64,000 nt of DNA. It comes from Pseudoflavonifractor sp. Marseille-P3106. Lineage in GTDB: Bacteria; Bacillota; Clostridia; Oscillospirales; Oscillospiraceae. The stretch spans positions 1-64,000 of the forward strand of contig LT827123.1 of the NCBI GenBank assembly GCA_900169975.1, given 5' to 3'. Below are positions 1 through 55,715 of this stretch, piece by piece (position 1 is the stretch's first letter; each line of letters begins with the position of its first letter). Position numbers and translations under genes: made by a program. The notes under the pieces were generated by a model that was given only the letters and a program-made list of their open reading frames with translations, made no database searches and was not told the DNA's origin.

Positions 1-61
1 CCTGATAATCCTCTACGGCCTGAATCTTTAGCTCCGGTGGTATTTTGCCTTTTAAGCTCAT
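1..61 (-). CDS. IS3-family transposase OrfA, N-terminal fragment (runs off window)
   Basis: This holds the start codon and first 20 codons of OrfA on the minus strand, identical to the start of the 227-aa OrfA at 50749. It encodes the beginning of the first helix-turn-helix unit (MSLKGKIPPELK). The remainder lies to the left of the window. The ribosome-binding site GGAGGGAG precedes the ATG by a normal distance, as in the full copy. Confidence 0.9.
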   Translation of the reverse strand, partial: MSLKGKIPPELKIQAVEDYQ

Positions 62-127
62 GATAATTGCTCCCTCCGTTTCGACAGTTTTATTTTTTCC
101 ACTGTCTACTTGAAAGGGAGCATATCA
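1..127 (-). mobile_element. IS3-family element, left end only (second copy of the 50683-52360 IS)
   Basis: The reverse complement of these bases is identical over all 127 positions to the left end of the complete element at 50683-52360. It includes the inverted-repeat core TCAAGTAGACAG, the orfA ribosome-binding site and the first orfA codons. Comparing the two copies fixes the left terminus: both share the sequence up to TGATATGCTCCC, outside which the flanks differ. The rest of this copy lies before the window. Perfect identity implies recent transposition. The flank is half of a terminator (see 131-146). Confidence 0.93.
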
Positions 128-50439: not shown

Positions 50440-50652
50440 ATGCTGTTTCAGAAAAAGATAGAACCGCGGTGTACCTATTGCGCCAAAGGGGCGCCGCTGG
50501 AAGACGGGCAGATCCTCTGTGCCAAAAAGGGCGTGGTCTCCCCCGCGGGGAGCTGCTCCGGGTTTCGGTATGATCCGCTCAAGCGGATTCCGCCCCGCCC
50601 GGCGGTGCTGGACACCAGCCGGCTGAAGGATGAAGATTTTCGCCTGGAGTGA
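50440..50652 (+). CDS. Small conserved Cys-containing protein
   Basis: This 70-aa protein has CTYCAKG near the start, then LCAKKGVVSPAGSCSGFRYDPLKRIPP. The four Cys suggest a small metal-binding fold. It is widespread in Clostridia next to pgsA/rimO, with no known function. GGGAGG lies before the ATG. Its terminator is split by the following IS. Confidence 0.75.
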   Translation: MLFQKKIEPRCTYCAKGAPLEDGQILCAKKGVVSPAGSCSGFRYDPLKRIPPRPAVLDTSRLKDEDFRLE

Positions 50653-50748
50653 AGAGCGAAACAAAAAGGGCGGACCGGAATGTGATATGCTCCCTTTCAA
50701 GTAGACAGTGGAAAAAATAAAACTGTCGAAACGGAGGGAGCAATTATC

Positions 50749-51432
50749 ATGAGCTTAAAAGGCAAAATACCACCGGAGCTAAAGATTCAGGCCGTAGAGG
50801 ATTATCAGGCAACTCGCAAGGGTTCTACTGAGATAATCAAGGAATTAGGGATTCGCAGAAGCACCTTTCAATCCTGGGTGCGGAAATATCAGATGGAGGG
50901 TCGCAGCGGGCTGTATCCGAAAAAGAAGTTTACCAGTTACTCATCATCACTCAAACTGGCGGCCGTGGAGGACTATTTAAACGGAGGAGGGTCGCTGGAC
51001 GCCGTGTGCCGCAAATACGGGATTTCCTCCCATGCGGTTTTACAGCAATGGATTACGTTGTATAATCAAGGCCATAGGGATTTCAAGACACGCAGAGCAC
51101 GGGAGGAAACAGATATGGCCGAGAAAGAAAAATTATCGCAGGAGGAAAAGCTGCAGGCAGTACTATACTGCTTAGAACATCAACTGGACTACCGGCAGAC
51201 CAGCGAGCAGTACAAGATCACCTATCAGCAGATCTATAGCTGGGTCAAAAAATATCAAGAGAAGGGAGAAGCCGGGTTGCTTGACCGCCGGGGCAAACGC
51301 CGCCCTCTTTCCGAATACAGCGAGGAGGAAAAAGCTGCGGCAAAGCTGCGGCAGCTGGAGGCGGAAAACAGAAGGCTTCAAATGGAGAACGATTTCTTAA
51401 AAAAATTGAACGAACTCGAGGGGAGGCGGTAA
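50749..51432 (+). CDS. IS3-family transposase OrfA
   Basis: This 227-aa DNA-binding protein contains three helix-turn-helix-like repeats: about 10-45 (STEIIKELGIRRSTFQSWVRKYQ), 65-100 (SLDAVCRKYGISSHAVLQQW) and 125-165 (DYRQTSEQYKITYQQIYSWVKKY). A leucine-zipper-like coiled coil (about 195-222) ends in LKKLNELEGRR. It binds the IS ends. The frameshift site lies in the codons for LKK. Confidence 0.92.
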   Translation: MSLKGKIPPELKIQAVEDYQATRKGSTEIIKELGIRRSTFQSWVRKYQMEGRSGLYPKKKFTSYSSSLKLAAVEDYLNGGGSLDAVCRKYGISSHAVLQQWITLYNQGHRDFKTRRAREETDMAEKEKLSQEEKLQAVLYCLEHQLDYRQTSEQYKITYQQIYSWVKKYQEKGEAGLLDRRGKRRPLSEYSEEEKAAAKLRQLEAENRRLQMENDFLKKLNELEGRR

Positions 51433-52319
51433 GCAGGCTCACACGTCGCAGGAAGGTCTATGAGGCGATCCATACGCTTCATCGGGAAAAAGGATATGAA
51501 ATTGCATCGTTATGCGCGTTATCCGGGATTCCCCGCTGTTCTTACTACAAATGGCTTCACCGGGAAGAAAGTGCCTCAGAAAAAGAAAATACCCTCTTGC
51601 TGGAAGAGATCATCCGTTTGTACAGCGAAGTAAAAGGCATCTACGGTTATCGCCGTATGACGTTGAATGTGAACAGCCGGCTCAAAAGGAACTACAACCA
51701 CAAACGGATTTACCGCCTGATGAAAAGCGTGCACATGCAGGCCGTGATACGCCGAAAGAAGAAGCATTATGTCATGTTGGGACCGCGTATTACCGCTGAA
51801 AACGTATTGAACAGAGCATTTACGGCAAATAGGCCCAATGAAAAATGGCTGACAGATGTCACAGAATTCAAACTTCTCAACGGGAAGAAAGCATACCTGA
51901 GTGCGATCCTTGATCTCCATGACAAAAGCATCGTTGCGTATGCACTGGGCCAATCCAACAACAATCAGCTTGTTTTTGACACCTTTGACAGAGCGGTGAG
52001 AGCCAACCCCAACGCCCATCCTCTGTTTCACAGTGACAGAGGCTACCAATACACCAACCGGCAGTTCAAAGCAAAGCTGGACGGTATCCGTGCAACGCAG
52101 AGTATGTCCCGGCCCGGCCGCTGCATCGACAACGGCCCTATGGAGGGCTTCTGGGGGATTCTCAAATCTGAAATGTACTACCTCCAGCAATTTCATACCT
52201 TTGAGGAATTGAAGAAAGCCATCGACGAATACATGGACTTTTACAATACAAGGCGGCTTCAAGCTAAGTTAAAGGGCCTGGCTCCCCTTGCTTACAGGAA
52301 CCAGACCCTCGTGGCGTAA
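51404..52319 (+). CDS. IS3-family transposase OrfB (DDE integrase), expressed by -1 frameshift
   Basis: After slippage at 51399-51405 the frame continues as KIERTRGEAVSRLTRRRKVYEA into a typical OrfB. It has the HTH_21 region (IRLYSEVKGIYGYRRM) and the rve core with catalytic D in EKWLTDVTEF, D in HSDRGYQYTN and E in GPMEGFWGILKSE. A TTG at 51597 could start a shorter 240-aa form, but this would lose the N-terminal DNA-binding part. Confidence 0.9.
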
Positions 52320-52383
52320 TCTTTCTTTTTTTACCTGTCTACTTGACAGGGGGCGGTTCAATGGACATTCCGGTCCGCCCTTT

Positions 52384-52806
52384 TTATACCTGCGTCCAGC
52401 GCTCTGTCATTTGGAACAGTGTGTTCAGAGCGGCGGGGGAACCAAGCAGGCAGTAATTTTTTCCGTTCCAGCAGATCCCGCCTCCGGAAGTCAATTCAAA
52501 GAAGGCCATGTCCGCTTTATAGTAGACCGTGAAGCAGTAAGAGCGCTCCGAAGAGGGCGGATTTGTTTCGAAGGGGGACGGGACCAGCAAAAGGCGCGTC
52601 AATTCGGACAGAAAACAGTGGATTTCCACGATGTTTTCCGTATACCGGACCACAACGGAGGCGGGGCCGGAAACGGTCACCGACACCATGGCGGCTTTTT
52701 CCGCCGGCTGAGGGAGCAGCTCCCCCGCCTGACGCGGGAAAAAGATTCCCAAGCATGGGATGGCAGCCGCCGCTGCCACGGTTGAGATCACACTCCTCTG
52801 TCTCAT
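52384..52806 (-). CDS. Small exported protein of unknown function
   Basis: This 140-aa protein has an N-terminal signal-like segment (RQRSVISTVAAAAAIPCLGIFF), then a beta-rich domain (AAMVSVTVSGPASVVVRYTENIVEIHCFL). It lies isolated between two IS elements that each disrupted a terminator next to it. It is upstream-exposed to read-through from the hydrogenase and convergent to the 70-aa gene. No family is recognised. The ATG at 52806 has only a weak site (GGGGTG). Confidence 0.6.
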   Translation of the reverse strand: MRQRSVISTVAAAAAIPCLGIFFPRQAGELLPQPAEKAAMVSVTVSGPASVVVRYTENIVEIHCFLSELTRLLLVPSPFETNPPSSERSYCFTVYYKADMAFFELTSGGGICWNGKNYCLLGSPAALNTLFQMTERWTQV

Positions 52807-52981
52807 TTTACACACCCCATCCCTTTGCCCTATAAAGGGTCCTTTATTAAGACAACGGTTCAAAGGGCAAAAATGTGACAGGTTTTTAAAAAATTTTATT
52901 TTAAGAAGGCCGGGGAGCATTGAACCGCCCCAAATTGTGCGGACAGCACAAAAAGGCCTCAATGTAGGGAAACATGAAGTT

Positions 52982-53839
52982 TTAAGCGGAGTGGCGCAGC
53001 GTGAGCGGCGCCACTCCAGTTTTTAGCTGGATGCGCTCGTGGTTGTAAAAATTGATATAGCGGTCAATCATCTCATTGGCCTCACAGAATGAGGCCGGTT
53101 TATGGCGGTAGATACACTCTGTCTTGAGGATGGAAAAGAAATTTTCCGCCATAGCGTTGTCGTAACAGTTTCCGCGTCTTGACATGGAAGGCGTAATGCC
53201 ATAAGATTTTGTCAGGTCGAAGTATGCTTGCGAGGTGTACTGGAACCCCTGGTCGCTGTGGAGCTGCAACTCCGCAGCGGCCCTCTTTTTCTCCTTGCGC
53301 ATGGCCAGGCGAATGGTGTCCAGCACCAGGTTGACTGTCTGCTTTGTGCCGGTCTTGTAGGCAACAATGCTGTTGTCGTAAAGGTCCCGGATCATGGACA
53401 GGTACAATACGCCCTGCTTGGTGTGGATGTAGGAGATGTCCGTCACCCATTTGCTGTTGGGCCTGTTCGCATAAAACTCCCTATTCAGCAGATTCTTGTA
53501 CTTGTGGACTTGCTGCCCCATCTGCTGCCATTTTCTGCGTCTCCGGATCTCCGCAAGCAAACCATATTTCTCCATGATACGCAGGATGGTCTTGGGATTA
53601 CGGTGGATGCCTCGCTTCTTCAGCACCAGCCACATTCTGCGGTAGCCATACGTACGAAAGCTGCGCTCTCGCTGTTCCGCGATGATTTCTGCAAGGGCCG
53701 CGTCTTTCTCCGGCCTGCCCAAACGATGGACGAAATCATAGTATCCGCTGCGGGATACCTGAAAGAAGCGACACATAACGGTTACCGGATATTCGTTTCT
53801 GTGCCGGTAGATTACTGCGTATTTTGCCCTTGGCCTCAC
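52982..53839 (-). CDS. IS3-family transposase OrfB (DDE integrase)
   Basis: This 285-aa catalytic protein has an HTH_21 region (RTYGYRRMWLVLKKRGI) and the rve core with D in SKWVTDISYIHT, D in LHSDQGFQYTS and E in NAMAENFFSILKTE. The GTG start at 53839 overlaps the OrfA stop (GTGA), so it is translated by coupling or frameshift. The C-terminus ends in YNHERIQLKTGVAPLTLRH, as in IS150/IS3 elements. Confidence 0.94.
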   Translation of the reverse strand: MRPRAKYAVIYRHRNEYPVTVMCRFFQVSRSGYYDFVHRLGRPEKDAALAEIIAEQRERSFRTYGYRRMWLVLKKRGIHRNPKTILRIMEKYGLLAEIRRRRKWQQMGQQVHKYKNLLNREFYANRPNSKWVTDISYIHTKQGVLYLSMIRDLYDNSIVAYKTGTKQTVNLVLDTIRLAMRKEKKRAAAELQLHSDQGFQYTSQAYFDLTKSYGITPSMSRRGNCYDNAMAENFFSILKTECIYRHKPASFCEANEMIDRYINFYNHERIQLKTGVAPLTLRHSA

Positions 53840-54108
53840 TTCCTTCCTGTGGAGCGCAGAAAATCCCGCAACAGCTCGTTTTCCATCTTTAGCCGTTTGT
53901 TCTCATACTTGTACTCCGCCAGTGTTTTTGCGGGTTTACGCCCCCGCGCTTTTGGAAGGGCAGGCTCCTTTAGCCAGCACTGAATAGCCCACCGGCTGAT
54001 CCCATACTCCCGACATAAAGCACGCTGGCTTTCTCCTCCGCGGATTCGTGACACCACTTCTTCTCGTATCCCTACCGGATACTTTTTCATCCCTTTTTTT
54101 CCGGACAT
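53836..54108 (-). CDS. IS3-family transposase OrfA
   Basis: This 90-aa protein has one HTH (REEVVSRIRGGESQRALCREYGISRWAIQCWLKE) and a short coiled coil (EYKYENKRLKMENELL). It binds the terminal repeats of the element. Shorter than the OrfA of the neighbouring IS, it belongs to a different subgroup. Confidence 0.92.
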   Translation of the reverse strand: MSGKKGMKKYPVGIREEVVSRIRGGESQRALCREYGISRWAIQCWLKEPALPKARGRKPAKTLAEYKYENKRLKMENELLRDFLRSTGRK

Positions 54109-54216
54109 AGCAAGACCCCCTAATGTAGCTTTATTTTCCTACATTAGGGGGCCTTTTGTCTATTGTCCGGTTTTACTGGAGCTGTTCACATTGCTCCCCG
54201 GCCTTCTCAACACCGA

Positions 54217-55665
54217 TTAATCTTTTTCCTCGGACTGCTTTACCGAGCCGTCCACAGCGCCCAAAATGGTGCGGCCTTTGGCCTCCTTGGCGTGTTTGTC
54301 CACATCCATCTGGTTGCGGGGACTGCGGATCAGAATGCCCGCACCCTGGACGCAGCCGCCCTCGCAGGCCATGCCCTCGATAAAGTTCACATCGCCGATC
54401 CCGCGGGCCATCTTCATCAGTTCTGCCTTACAGGCATTGATGCCGCTGCAGGACACGGCGTGGAGCTTGAACTGTTCGTCGGTGACGCCGTGCTCCTTCA
54501 GCCCCTCGGCCACAGCTGCGGCCACACCGCCGGAGTGGGCGAAGGAGCGGCCGAAGCCGCTGGCCTCATCCAGCGGGGTCTCTTCCAGCTGCTCTGGGTC
54601 AATGCCCTTGGATTCAAAGAGCGGGTAGAGCTCTTCGAAGGTAATGGCACAGTCGATGGCACCCATGGTTTTGCCCAGCTGGAACTCCCGCTTCTTGGCC
54701 ACGCAGGGACCGACAAAGACCACCCGGGCCCGGGGATCCTTCTCCTTCAGGCGTTTGCCGATCATCACCATTGGGGAGGGGGTATGGGAGATAAGAGGAG
54801 CCAGGTCGGGGAAGTTTTTCTCTACGTAGTCCACGAAAGCAGGGCAGCAGGAGGAGAGAAGCTTGCCCTTCTCCACCAGCTCCTGGCTCTCGGCTTTTGC
54901 AGTCATGTCGGCACCCAGAGCGACCTCGGCCACATCGTAGAAGCCCACCATCTTCAATGCGGTGACCACCTGCCCCAGGGTGGCGGGGGCAAACTGACCG
55001 GCGATGGAGGGAGCCAGCACGGCGTAGACCCGGAAGTCCCACCGCGCAGCGCCGCGGAGCATCTGGATCACATCTACCAGGTAGGACTTGTCCATGATGG
55101 CACCGAAGGGGCATTGATAAACGCAGCTGCCGCAGGCGATACACTTGTTGACGTCGATGGAGGCCGATTTGTCCTCGCCCATGGAGATGGCGCCGGGGGC
55201 GCAGCCGCGCTCACAGGGGCGCTGCCGCTTTTCGATGGCGCCGTAGGGACAGGCGGAGACGCATTTGCCGCAGGTGATGCACTTGGCGTGGTCGATGGTG
55301 GCCTTGTGGTTGATGATGGTGATGGCGTCCTTGGGACAGGAGTGGACGCAACGGGTGGCGATACAGCCCCGGCAGGCGGGGCCCACCTCGATCTGGGTCA
55401 CGGGACATTCGTCGCAGGCCACCGCCATGACCTCCACCATGGCGGGGTTGGAGCTGTCCCCGCCCATGGCCATCTTGAGGCGGCTGGACACCACCGCCCG
55501 CTCTTTGTAGATGCAGCAGCGCATCTTGGCCTCCGGCCCGGGTACGATCTGTTCGGGCACGTCCAGGATCCCGGTGGCCAGACGGTCCTCCCAGGTCAGT
55601 TCGGCCACCGACTTAAGAACCTGGTCCTTCAGCTCCTGTACCGATGTTTCAAATTTACGCATCAT
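54217..55665 (-). CDS. [FeFe] hydrogenase, group-B-like, with N-terminal ferredoxin domains
   Basis: This 482-aa iron-sulfur enzyme interconverts protons and H2. The N-terminal half has many cluster cysteines (CDECP, CRGC, CITCGKC, CERGC, CIACGSC). The H-cluster motifs are variants: P1 SSCCPAF instead of TSCCPxW, P2 GPCVAKKRE, and P3 EGMACEGGCVQGAG, as in group B enzymes. No HydE/F/G maturases are in the window. The ATG at 55665 follows AAAGGAG by 6 bases, and the promoter is at 55716-55745. Its terminator is split by an IS. Confidence 0.9.
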   Translation of the reverse strand: MMRKFETSVQELKDQVLKSVAELTWEDRLATGILDVPEQIVPGPEAKMRCCIYKERAVVSSRLKMAMGGDSSNPAMVEVMAVACDECPVTQIEVGPACRGCIATRCVHSCPKDAITIINHKATIDHAKCITCGKCVSACPYGAIEKRQRPCERGCAPGAISMGEDKSASIDVNKCIACGSCVYQCPFGAIMDKSYLVDVIQMLRGAARWDFRVYAVLAPSIAGQFAPATLGQVVTALKMVGFYDVAEVALGADMTAKAESQELVEKGKLLSSCCPAFVDYVEKNFPDLAPLISHTPSPMVMIGKRLKEKDPRARVVFVGPCVAKKREFQLGKTMGAIDCAITFEELYPLFESKGIDPEQLEETPLDEASGFGRSFAHSGGVAAAVAEGLKEHGVTDEQFKLHAVSCSGINACKAELMKMARGIGDVNFIEGMACEGGCVQGAGILIRSPRNQMDVDKHAKEAKGRTILGAVDGSVKQSEEKD

Positions 55666-55715
55666 TGATATCTCCTTTGCCAACGGGCAATATGCGGTTC
55701 TGCTTTCTTTTGTTT

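Follow-up and report, generated by a model that had tools for sequence, protein, structure and literature searches.

Mobile elements that insert at hairpins

With respect to insertion at hairpin-forming DNA, precedents are known from several classes of mobile elements. The IS3-family element ISPsy8 is located in REP sequences in five of five copies, at the symmetry axis of the predicted REP hairpin and flanked by direct repeats of 3 bp, and IS1397 and ISKpn1 are cited there as REP-specific (PMC1525189). IS1272/TnSha1 of the IS1182 family is reported to have hairpin targets with little primary sequence conservation, several of them confirmed transcription terminators, IS1272 itself inserting bluntly, by which part of the hairpin is deleted and no duplication arises (PMC4923244). 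A literature search covering titles and abstract openings, with most subscription papers beyond its reach, returned no terminator-targeting element of the IS3 family. Outside the transposase-encoding elements, group IIC introns insert beside terminator stem-loops; they are retroelements with a ribozyme, having neither a transposase nor a target site duplication (TSD).

The elements described here, termed A, B and C, are a variant on this theme. A and B belong to the IS3 family like ISPsy8, IS1397 and ISKpn1, and A, B and C resemble ISPsy8 in entering a palindrome at its symmetry axis and in their short TSD. However, ISPsy8, IS1397 and ISKpn1 have as their target a single repeat family, for which a sequence consensus exists, whereas the hairpins hit by A, B and C within one genome have no evident sequence in common and are mostly terminator-like; copies confined to a single consensus repeat family are not found in the genome under study and are approached only in genome G399. 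Terminator or terminator-like hairpins as targets are common to A, B and IS1272/TnSha1, but in contrast to IS1272, A and B generate duplications of 3-5 bp, keep both hairpin arms and insert centred on the loop. The neighbourhood of terminator stem-loops is likewise shared with the group IIC introns, from which A and B differ in that the former are ribozyme-bearing retroelements.

Structure of elements A and B

The window, a stretch of 64,000 nucleotides at the start of a contig of Pseudoflavonifractor sp. Marseille-P3106, contains both elements. Element A (50683-52360, + strand; ends TGATATGCTCCC...GGGGGCGGTTCA, set from two more full copies in the same genome, L002 and L003) codes for a long OrfA of 227 aa (50749-51432) with a repeated helix-turn-helix (HTH) motif, HTH_28 matching in three stretches, and for an OrfB (51429-52319, stop included) that resembles IS3-type DDE transposases (rve). 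Only the left end of a further copy (L013) is present at positions 1-127 on the - strand, where it is cut by the contig edge; its single flank resembles half a terminator. Element B (52921-54188, - strand), of which six additional copies (L004-L009) with 99-100% identity exist in the genome, has a short OrfA of 90 aa with a single HTH (HTH_Tnp_1; 53836-54108, - strand) and an rve-type OrfB of 285 aa (52982-53839, - strand). In both elements the two frames overlap, at 51429-51432 in A and at 53836-53839 in B, and the OrfB proteins match the IS3 model NF033516 with 284.9 bits (A) and 304.3 bits (B) at a cut-off of 160. The terminal inverted repeats are imperfect, with TG...CA ends and 21/26 matches in A and 16/26 in B. 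By their rve-type OrfB, HTH-containing OrfA, TG...CA ends and TSD, A and B are thus to be classed as IS3-family insertion sequences, and the coordinates and parts assigned to them by the sequence-only reading are as described there. The OrfB proteins of A and B are 40% identical, and identities of 37-43% separate the A-, B- and C-like clades, the third IS3-family element, C, being present in the genome besides A and B.

Split hairpins at the insertion sites

Element A is flanked by ATG at 50680-50682 and 52361-52363 (+ strand), and element B by CAT at 52918-52920 and 54189-54191, which reads ATG on the strand of its transposase. A lies 30 bp beyond the stop codon of the open reading frame 50440-50652 and splits a terminator-like hairpin into a left arm at 50663-50681 and a right arm at 52367-52385 (+ strand) with TTTTT at its end, while B lies 28 bp beyond the stop of the - strand frame 54217-55683 and splits a hairpin which, read on the - strand, has its arm on the T-rich side at 52904-52918 and the other arm at 54193-54207. 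Rejoining of the flanks restores AAAAAGGGCGGACCGGAAT-ggac-ATTCCGGTCCGCCCTTTTT as the empty site of A and AGAAGGCCGGGGAGC-aat-GCTCCCCGGCCTTCT as that of B. With hairpin scores of g=48 at A and g=46 at B, compared to 29 at the 99th and 36 at the 99.9th percentile for random positions, both hairpins are far above chance level. The sequence-only reading had placed the insertions at a stem-loop junction, which is correct for A but not for B, whose TSD overlaps the loop.

The same reading had linked the two elements via an identical orfB-side terminus of 11 bp and a common ATG target. It is evident that both end in TGAACCGCCCC; yet this sequence is also the end consensus of the B-like elements (exact in 15/54), and the A-like consensus is TGAACTGCCCC, with exact TGAACCGCCCC in 4/37 A-like and 0/19 C-like ends. 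Because the shared terminus departs little from the consensus in either group, its coincidence in A and B is uninformative, and a specificity link was rejected. Likewise, the ATG duplication is real at both elements of the window but is not a common target, since only 2 of 63 three-bp TSDs read ATG, namely those of A and B themselves. TSDs of 3-5 bp were found at 76 of all 110 sites, among which no TSD consensus could be detected.

Further evidence comes from these 76 TSD-bearing insertions of A, B, C and their relatives, 14 of which (copies of A, B, C and two relatives) reside in the window's genome. OrfB matches below 42% identity were left out, as were 85 locus records, 84 lacking two recognisable ends where expected and one located at a contig edge, some of these being duplicates of retained sites; the ends of L008 were set by hand, as there the hairpin arms extend the inverted repeat. 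In the window's genome, 13 of the 14 sites split a hairpin whose score exceeds the 99th percentile for random positions, although bases within 3 bp of the centre of a terminator-like loop make up only about 0.26% of this genome. Over all loci, 59/76 sites exceed the 95th percentile (20/29 A-like, 30/36 B-like and 9/11 C-like) and 49/76 the 99th. When the arms were swapped between sites the signal was lost, with 1.2% of 3000 combinations above the 99th percentile. The search for split arms at other copies, proposed by the sequence-only reading, hence bears out its view of terminator-like hairpins as targets. In the window's genome, no evident sequence is common to the target hairpins, which exceed the remaining terminator-like hairpins in strength (Mann-Whitney p=1e-4, 13 vs 171).

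Controls and exceptions

By comparison, none of 20 control sites exceeded the 95th percentile. The controls comprised 8 IS5-like copies in genome G366 and 12 copies of IS2, IS3 and IS150 in Escherichia coli K-12, 5 of the latter 12 having no detectable TSD; IS256 (6 matches), one of 9 matches in G366 and both in G000 were left out, and ISL3, sought as a further control, had matches in 0/8 genomes. Within G366 itself, 3/4 A-like TSD-bearing copies passed, in contrast to 0/8 IS5-like ones. In a quick OrfB tree, which carried long-branch warnings and did not include IS1397, the E. coli IS150 protein groups among the C-like ones, yet none of its 5 distinct sites lies in a hairpin loop or exceeds the threshold of the same score; the hairpin preference is therefore not a trait of this whole arm of the family.

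Exceptions exist among the TSD-bearing sites as well: 17/76, including L004 in the window's genome, L068 and L138, fall below the 95th percentile, some with weak or GU-rich hairpins and some resembling no hairpin at all, and the three TSD-bearing sites of G399 score only 19 where the 95th percentile is 24. Among the sites devoid of a TSD, 5/34 exceed the 95th percentile; since 31/34 (random 29%) still retain an A- or T-tract, these are read as recombinant or misassembled. An alternative score, the sum of RNAfold pairs enclosing the insertion point, separated the sites poorly, with 33/76 sites and 0/22 controls above its 95th percentile, and was set aside because random stretches also fold about their middle (null median 25).

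What the transposase may recognise

In the preferred explanation, the strand-transfer complex of A, B and C would favour the midpoint of a DNA palindrome able to form a hairpin. In these genomes such a midpoint would usually be an intrinsic terminator's loop, in many cases one with open frames converging on it from both sides, and in G399 a dispersed palindromic repeat. Pairing or dyad structure would be what is recognised: the transposase appears to select hairpin-forming dyads, probably in the form of transiently extruded cruciforms, a step that we infer. As the OrfA proteins differ strongly, recognition would reside in OrfB, which the elements have in common. Together with the sparing of genes and the RNA hairpin before OrfA discussed below, this explanation is given a probability of roughly 0.7.

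With a hairpin and T-tract near a gene end, the targets look by sequence like intrinsic terminators: an A-run of at least 4 on the left is combined with a T-run of at least 4 on the right at 54/76 sites (random 3.7%), and the end of an open frame lies within 100 bp at 57/72 (random 32%). These same observations would be expected if the transposase followed a paused RNA polymerase, the nascent RNA hairpin or an exposed DNA strand and not the DNA dyad. However, the insertion point follows the loop centre and not the T-tract: the distance between TSD centre and loop centre averages -0.37 bp (sd 2.06), with 44/59 sites within 2 bp, and for the same 52 sites the sd is 4.21 for the distance to the T-run versus 2.14 for that to the loop centre. 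Moreover, frame ends reading toward the site are divided 45 to 48 between the orfA and orfB sides, without a clear orientation bias, and the hairpins of L119 and L150 and the G399 repeats are without a clear T-tract, so that coupling to termination is considered unlikely. A reading of composition, i.e., of bent or stiff DNA made up of an A-tract, a GC-rich block and a T-tract, with pairing incidental to terminators, accords with the A- and T-tracts flanking most sites and is even compatible with the arm swapping, given that terminators bring pairing along. Yet arm-swapped sites hold their composition and lose their score, which makes pairing the shared property as far as can be told from sequence; in addition, stem composition varies between AT-rich (L277) and GC-rich (L002) and stronger hairpins are favoured, leaving this a decidedly improbable reading.

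Sequence-specific recognition of a REP-like repeat family spread in each genome would fit G399, where 4/4 copies were found in one dispersed palindromic repeat of which empty copies exist elsewhere, the rejoined empty site of L237 recurring exactly at two other places, and the GTAG-type arms that are alike at several G366 sites. It is nevertheless very unlikely in view of the dissimilar hairpins in the window's genome and the TSDs lacking a consensus. Finally, random insertion followed by the persistence of harmless copies would explain the proximity to open-frame ends, where insertion is benign. On the hairpin scores against both nulls this was rejected as a sole explanation and is hardly credible: 43/76 sites exceed even the 99th percentile of an intergenic-like null, 13 of them belonging to the 14 in the window's genome; no such pattern is seen for the IS5-like element of G366, and the exact loop position would offer no obvious gain in survival over neighbouring bases.

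A predicted RNA hairpin before OrfA

The proposal that the copies spare genes is consistent with their location near frame ends and with the position of 36/72 sites between two converging ends (random 5%). In consequence, insertion would leave genes intact but break the terminator; a hairpin that the element carries ahead of OrfA might then stop read-through transcripts from yielding transposase. In A, the left inverted repeat is predicted to pair with the pre-OrfA region (50683-50749, + strand; -26.6 kcal/mol, z -6.6), which contains a Shine-Dalgarno-like GGAGG, and in B a hairpin is predicted between the left end and OrfA (54113-54154, - strand; z -6.0). Over 41 distinct B-like heads, 348/355 cells of the latter are paired and 4/9 pairs are changed on both sides; covariation was scored on B-like heads alone, as alignments of the A and C heads yielded no consensus structure. 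Judged by these models, the hairpin may shield the transposase gene from read-through.

Implications

At somewhat less than even odds, the deep A-, B- and C-like clades of IS3-type elements in Bacillota might represent a general form of hairpin homing that combines the reading of pairing, terminator loops as safe harbours and an RNA shield, with the REP targeting seen in IS1397 and ISPsy8 as one particular instance. Natural insertions pointing to hairpin-forming dyads bear on the question of target choice by a DDE transposase that lacks sequence specificity, and three unlike elements in one genome offer a testable system. If structure is indeed read, the landing sites would map extruded cruciforms at terminators in vivo, and terminators between convergent genes are predicted to be hot spots of IS-driven rearrangement in these bacteria; safe-harbour integration tools without a sequence code are suggested as well. 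For two elements of a gut bacterium, and for many relatives elsewhere, insertion into the loop of a neighbouring gene's terminator would thus be a way to multiply with the genes left intact.

The elements and their copies

The genome carrying the window comprises 3.1 Mb in 20 contigs, the window being G000:C17, and holds three types of IS3-family element. Elements A (window positions 50683-52360) and B (52921-54188, minus strand) both have TG...CA inverted-repeat ends and a 3-bp target site duplication (TSD). Their OrfB transposases both match the IS3 model far over the cut-off and are 40.4% identical to each other, and OrfA has repeated HTH domains in A (227 aa) and a single one in B (90 aa). 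The third type, C, whose OrfB is 43% identical to that of A and 37% to that of B, is present as two near-identical copies together with a distant relative, L030.

Several contig ends of the assembly fall within A or B copies (window 1-127; L010, L012, L013, L014), and most of the single flanks of such copies resemble half terminators. Flanks of this kind also adjoin two facing orfB-side ends of B, L016 and L019 (G000:C11:26672-26719), which lie in a span of about 50 bp with no transposase and are either what is left of a B copy or the product of a deletion.

Target sites in the genome and in relatives

For each copy in this genome with both ends, the target site was rebuilt by joining the flanks and removing one TSD, a count that leaves out contig-end-cut copies and end fragments (L010, L012, L013, L014, L016). 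The TSDs read ATG, ATC and CAT for A; ATG, AAT, CTT, CGG, CAT, TTT and GAG for B, with CCC for its relative L011; and CGG and AAG for C, with GAG for L030. Of the 14 TSD-bearing sites (three of A, eight of B, three of C), 13 surpass the 99th percentile for matched random positions in their gapped hairpin score, which measures pairing between the flanks; L004 alone does not. The window and 20 further stretches of this genome, 464 kb in all, contain 171 hairpins scoring at least 29 with an A- or T-tract, i.e., 0.37 per kb, so that only 0.26% of positions lie within 3 bp of the loop centre of such a hairpin. The targeted hairpins are also stronger, with a median score of 47 for the 13 versus 34 for the 171 (p = 1e-4).

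Relatives of B, A and C were sought in 200 family genomes each, with matches in 13, 13 and 11 genomes, respectively, and the IS3 model matched in 24 of 80 family genomes; at class level (291 genomes each) A had matches in 13 and C in 11. Further B relatives were taken from 363 confirmed loci on named contigs, of which the best 80 were used, and further A relatives came from eight of 40 listed plasmid records (two each of Ruminococcus albus and Exiguobacterium, one each of Priestia, Sporomusa, Lysinibacillus and Niallia). Element ends were set by inverted repeats, geometry and TSD, hairpins playing no part. Of 110 distinct sites so obtained (85 records were dropped), 76 bear a TSD, of 3 bp in 63, 4 bp in 12 and 5 bp in one. 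With 6600 random positions drawn from the same set of loci as the reference, the 95th percentile is exceeded by 59 of these 76 sites, the 99th by 49 and the 99.9th by 29; with an ungapped score, in which the ends of L008 were mis-set, the first two counts are 57 and 48. Among the 34 sites without TSD only five exceed the 95th percentile, and an A- or T-tract adjoins the element in 31 of them versus 29% of random positions, as would be expected if their flanks were halves of different terminators brought together by recombination or misassembly.

None of 20 control copies exceeded the 95th percentile, namely eight IS5-like elements (of nine matches) in G366, a genome that also has five A-like copies, and 12 copies of IS2, IS3 and IS150 in E. 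coli K-12, with no detectable TSD in one of the former and five of the latter; of the TSD-bearing A-like copies in G366, three of four did. When arms were swapped between sites, only 1.2% of 3000 combinations exceeded the 99th percentile, and the score is therefore carried by the pairing of a site's own arms and not by base composition. Against an intergenic-like null, restricted to positions outside open frames of at least 100 codons (99th percentile, 31), 43 of the 76 sites still exceed the 99th percentile, 13 of them in the genome of the window. A looser RNAfold measure separates poorly, with 33 of 76 sites and none of 22 controls above its 95th percentile.

Geometry of insertion

Insertion is loop-centred and sequence-free, and takes place at strong hairpins without clear orientation. 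For the 59 sites that pass the 95th percentile, the TSD centre lies on average -0.37 bp (sd 2.06) from the loop centre, and within 2 bp of it in 44. The distance to the first T-run is twice as variable (sd 4.2 versus 2.1 for the loop in the same 52 sites). Of 72 sites with enough flank, 57 have an open-frame end pointing at them from no more than 100 bp away, versus 32% of random positions, and 36 have such ends on both sides, versus 5% (open frames of at least 80 codons, not annotated genes). The median distance from frame end to site is 33 bp; 45 of these ends are on the orfA side and 48 on the orfB side, and orientation judged by the longest tract gives 28 versus 17 with 14 ties, which is not a clear bias. 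Taken together, the geometry and these orientation counts argue that insertion tracks the symmetry axis and not the direction of transcription.

As to whether termination as such is recognised, all four A-like copies found in G399 (L224, L233, L237, L240) occupy a single dispersed, palindromic, REP-like repeat with the core AAAACCTA...TAGGTTTT. In its rebuilt, empty form, one of these four sites turns up elsewhere as two exact matches and one with a single difference (L290-L292), and the hairpins at the occupied sites are short, scoring below the 95th percentile. This resembles the targeting of REP sequences by ISPsy8 (PMC1525189) and suggests that the target is palindromes in general and not termination as such. 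Palindrome targeting is already known within the IS3 family from IS1397, ISKpn1 and ISPsy8 (PMC1525189); for a general use of terminators by IS3-family elements, no report was found by title or abstract start in the open-licence literature.

Mechanism and transposase phylogeny

Mechanistically, the strand-transfer complex probably captures a dyad that is able to extrude as a cruciform. Because A and B are unlike in OrfA yet have the same type of OrfB, the preference probably resides in OrfB. In a quick OrfB tree of 61 rows, which carries long-branch warnings, the A-like rows form one clade and the B-like rows another. The C-like rows cluster with two further rows and IS150 of E. coli, and IS3 and IS2 of that species lie outside. 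Five distinct IS150 sites, including those added from eight further E. coli records out of 3429 with a match, all remain below the 95th percentile (top score 23 versus a bar of 24), which implies that the preference varies within that arm of the tree.

Of the nine E. coli IS150 records read, out of the 3429 with a match, eight (L283, L293, L295-L300; four distinct sites) have the element beside hokA, hokB or hokE, and the ninth (L294) has it in rbsR. Other IS3-like elements, most of them with a single ORF of about 360-420 aa, form a clade of their own that has tRNA genes near five of its seven loci (L197, L201, L204, L216 and L219 being among the seven), L197 and L216 having the same tRNA-Lys neighbour, and that is a possible candidate for tRNA-directed insertion.

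A predicted shield upstream of OrfA

All three element types have a strong RNA hairpin directly before OrfA (A, window 50683-50749, plus strand; B, 54113-54154, minus strand; fold z of -6.6 and -6.0, respectively). The hairpin in the first 110 nt surpasses that of 95% of interior stretches in 53 of the 54 B-like copies, in 27 of the 37 A-like ones and in 15 of the 19 C-like ones, near-identical copies being included in these counts. The B-like heads have 348 of 355 cells paired, and four of nine pairs are changed on both sides in a compensatory manner. From the alignments of A and C heads no consensus structure was obtained, though single copies fold, with their left inverted repeat paired to the sequence immediately before OrfA. 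In IS10, IS50 and IS200, such hairpins stop the translation of transposase from transcripts entering from outside. The hairpin before OrfA is probably a shield against read-through transcription, a predicted role that fits an element landing downstream of genes and breaking their terminators.
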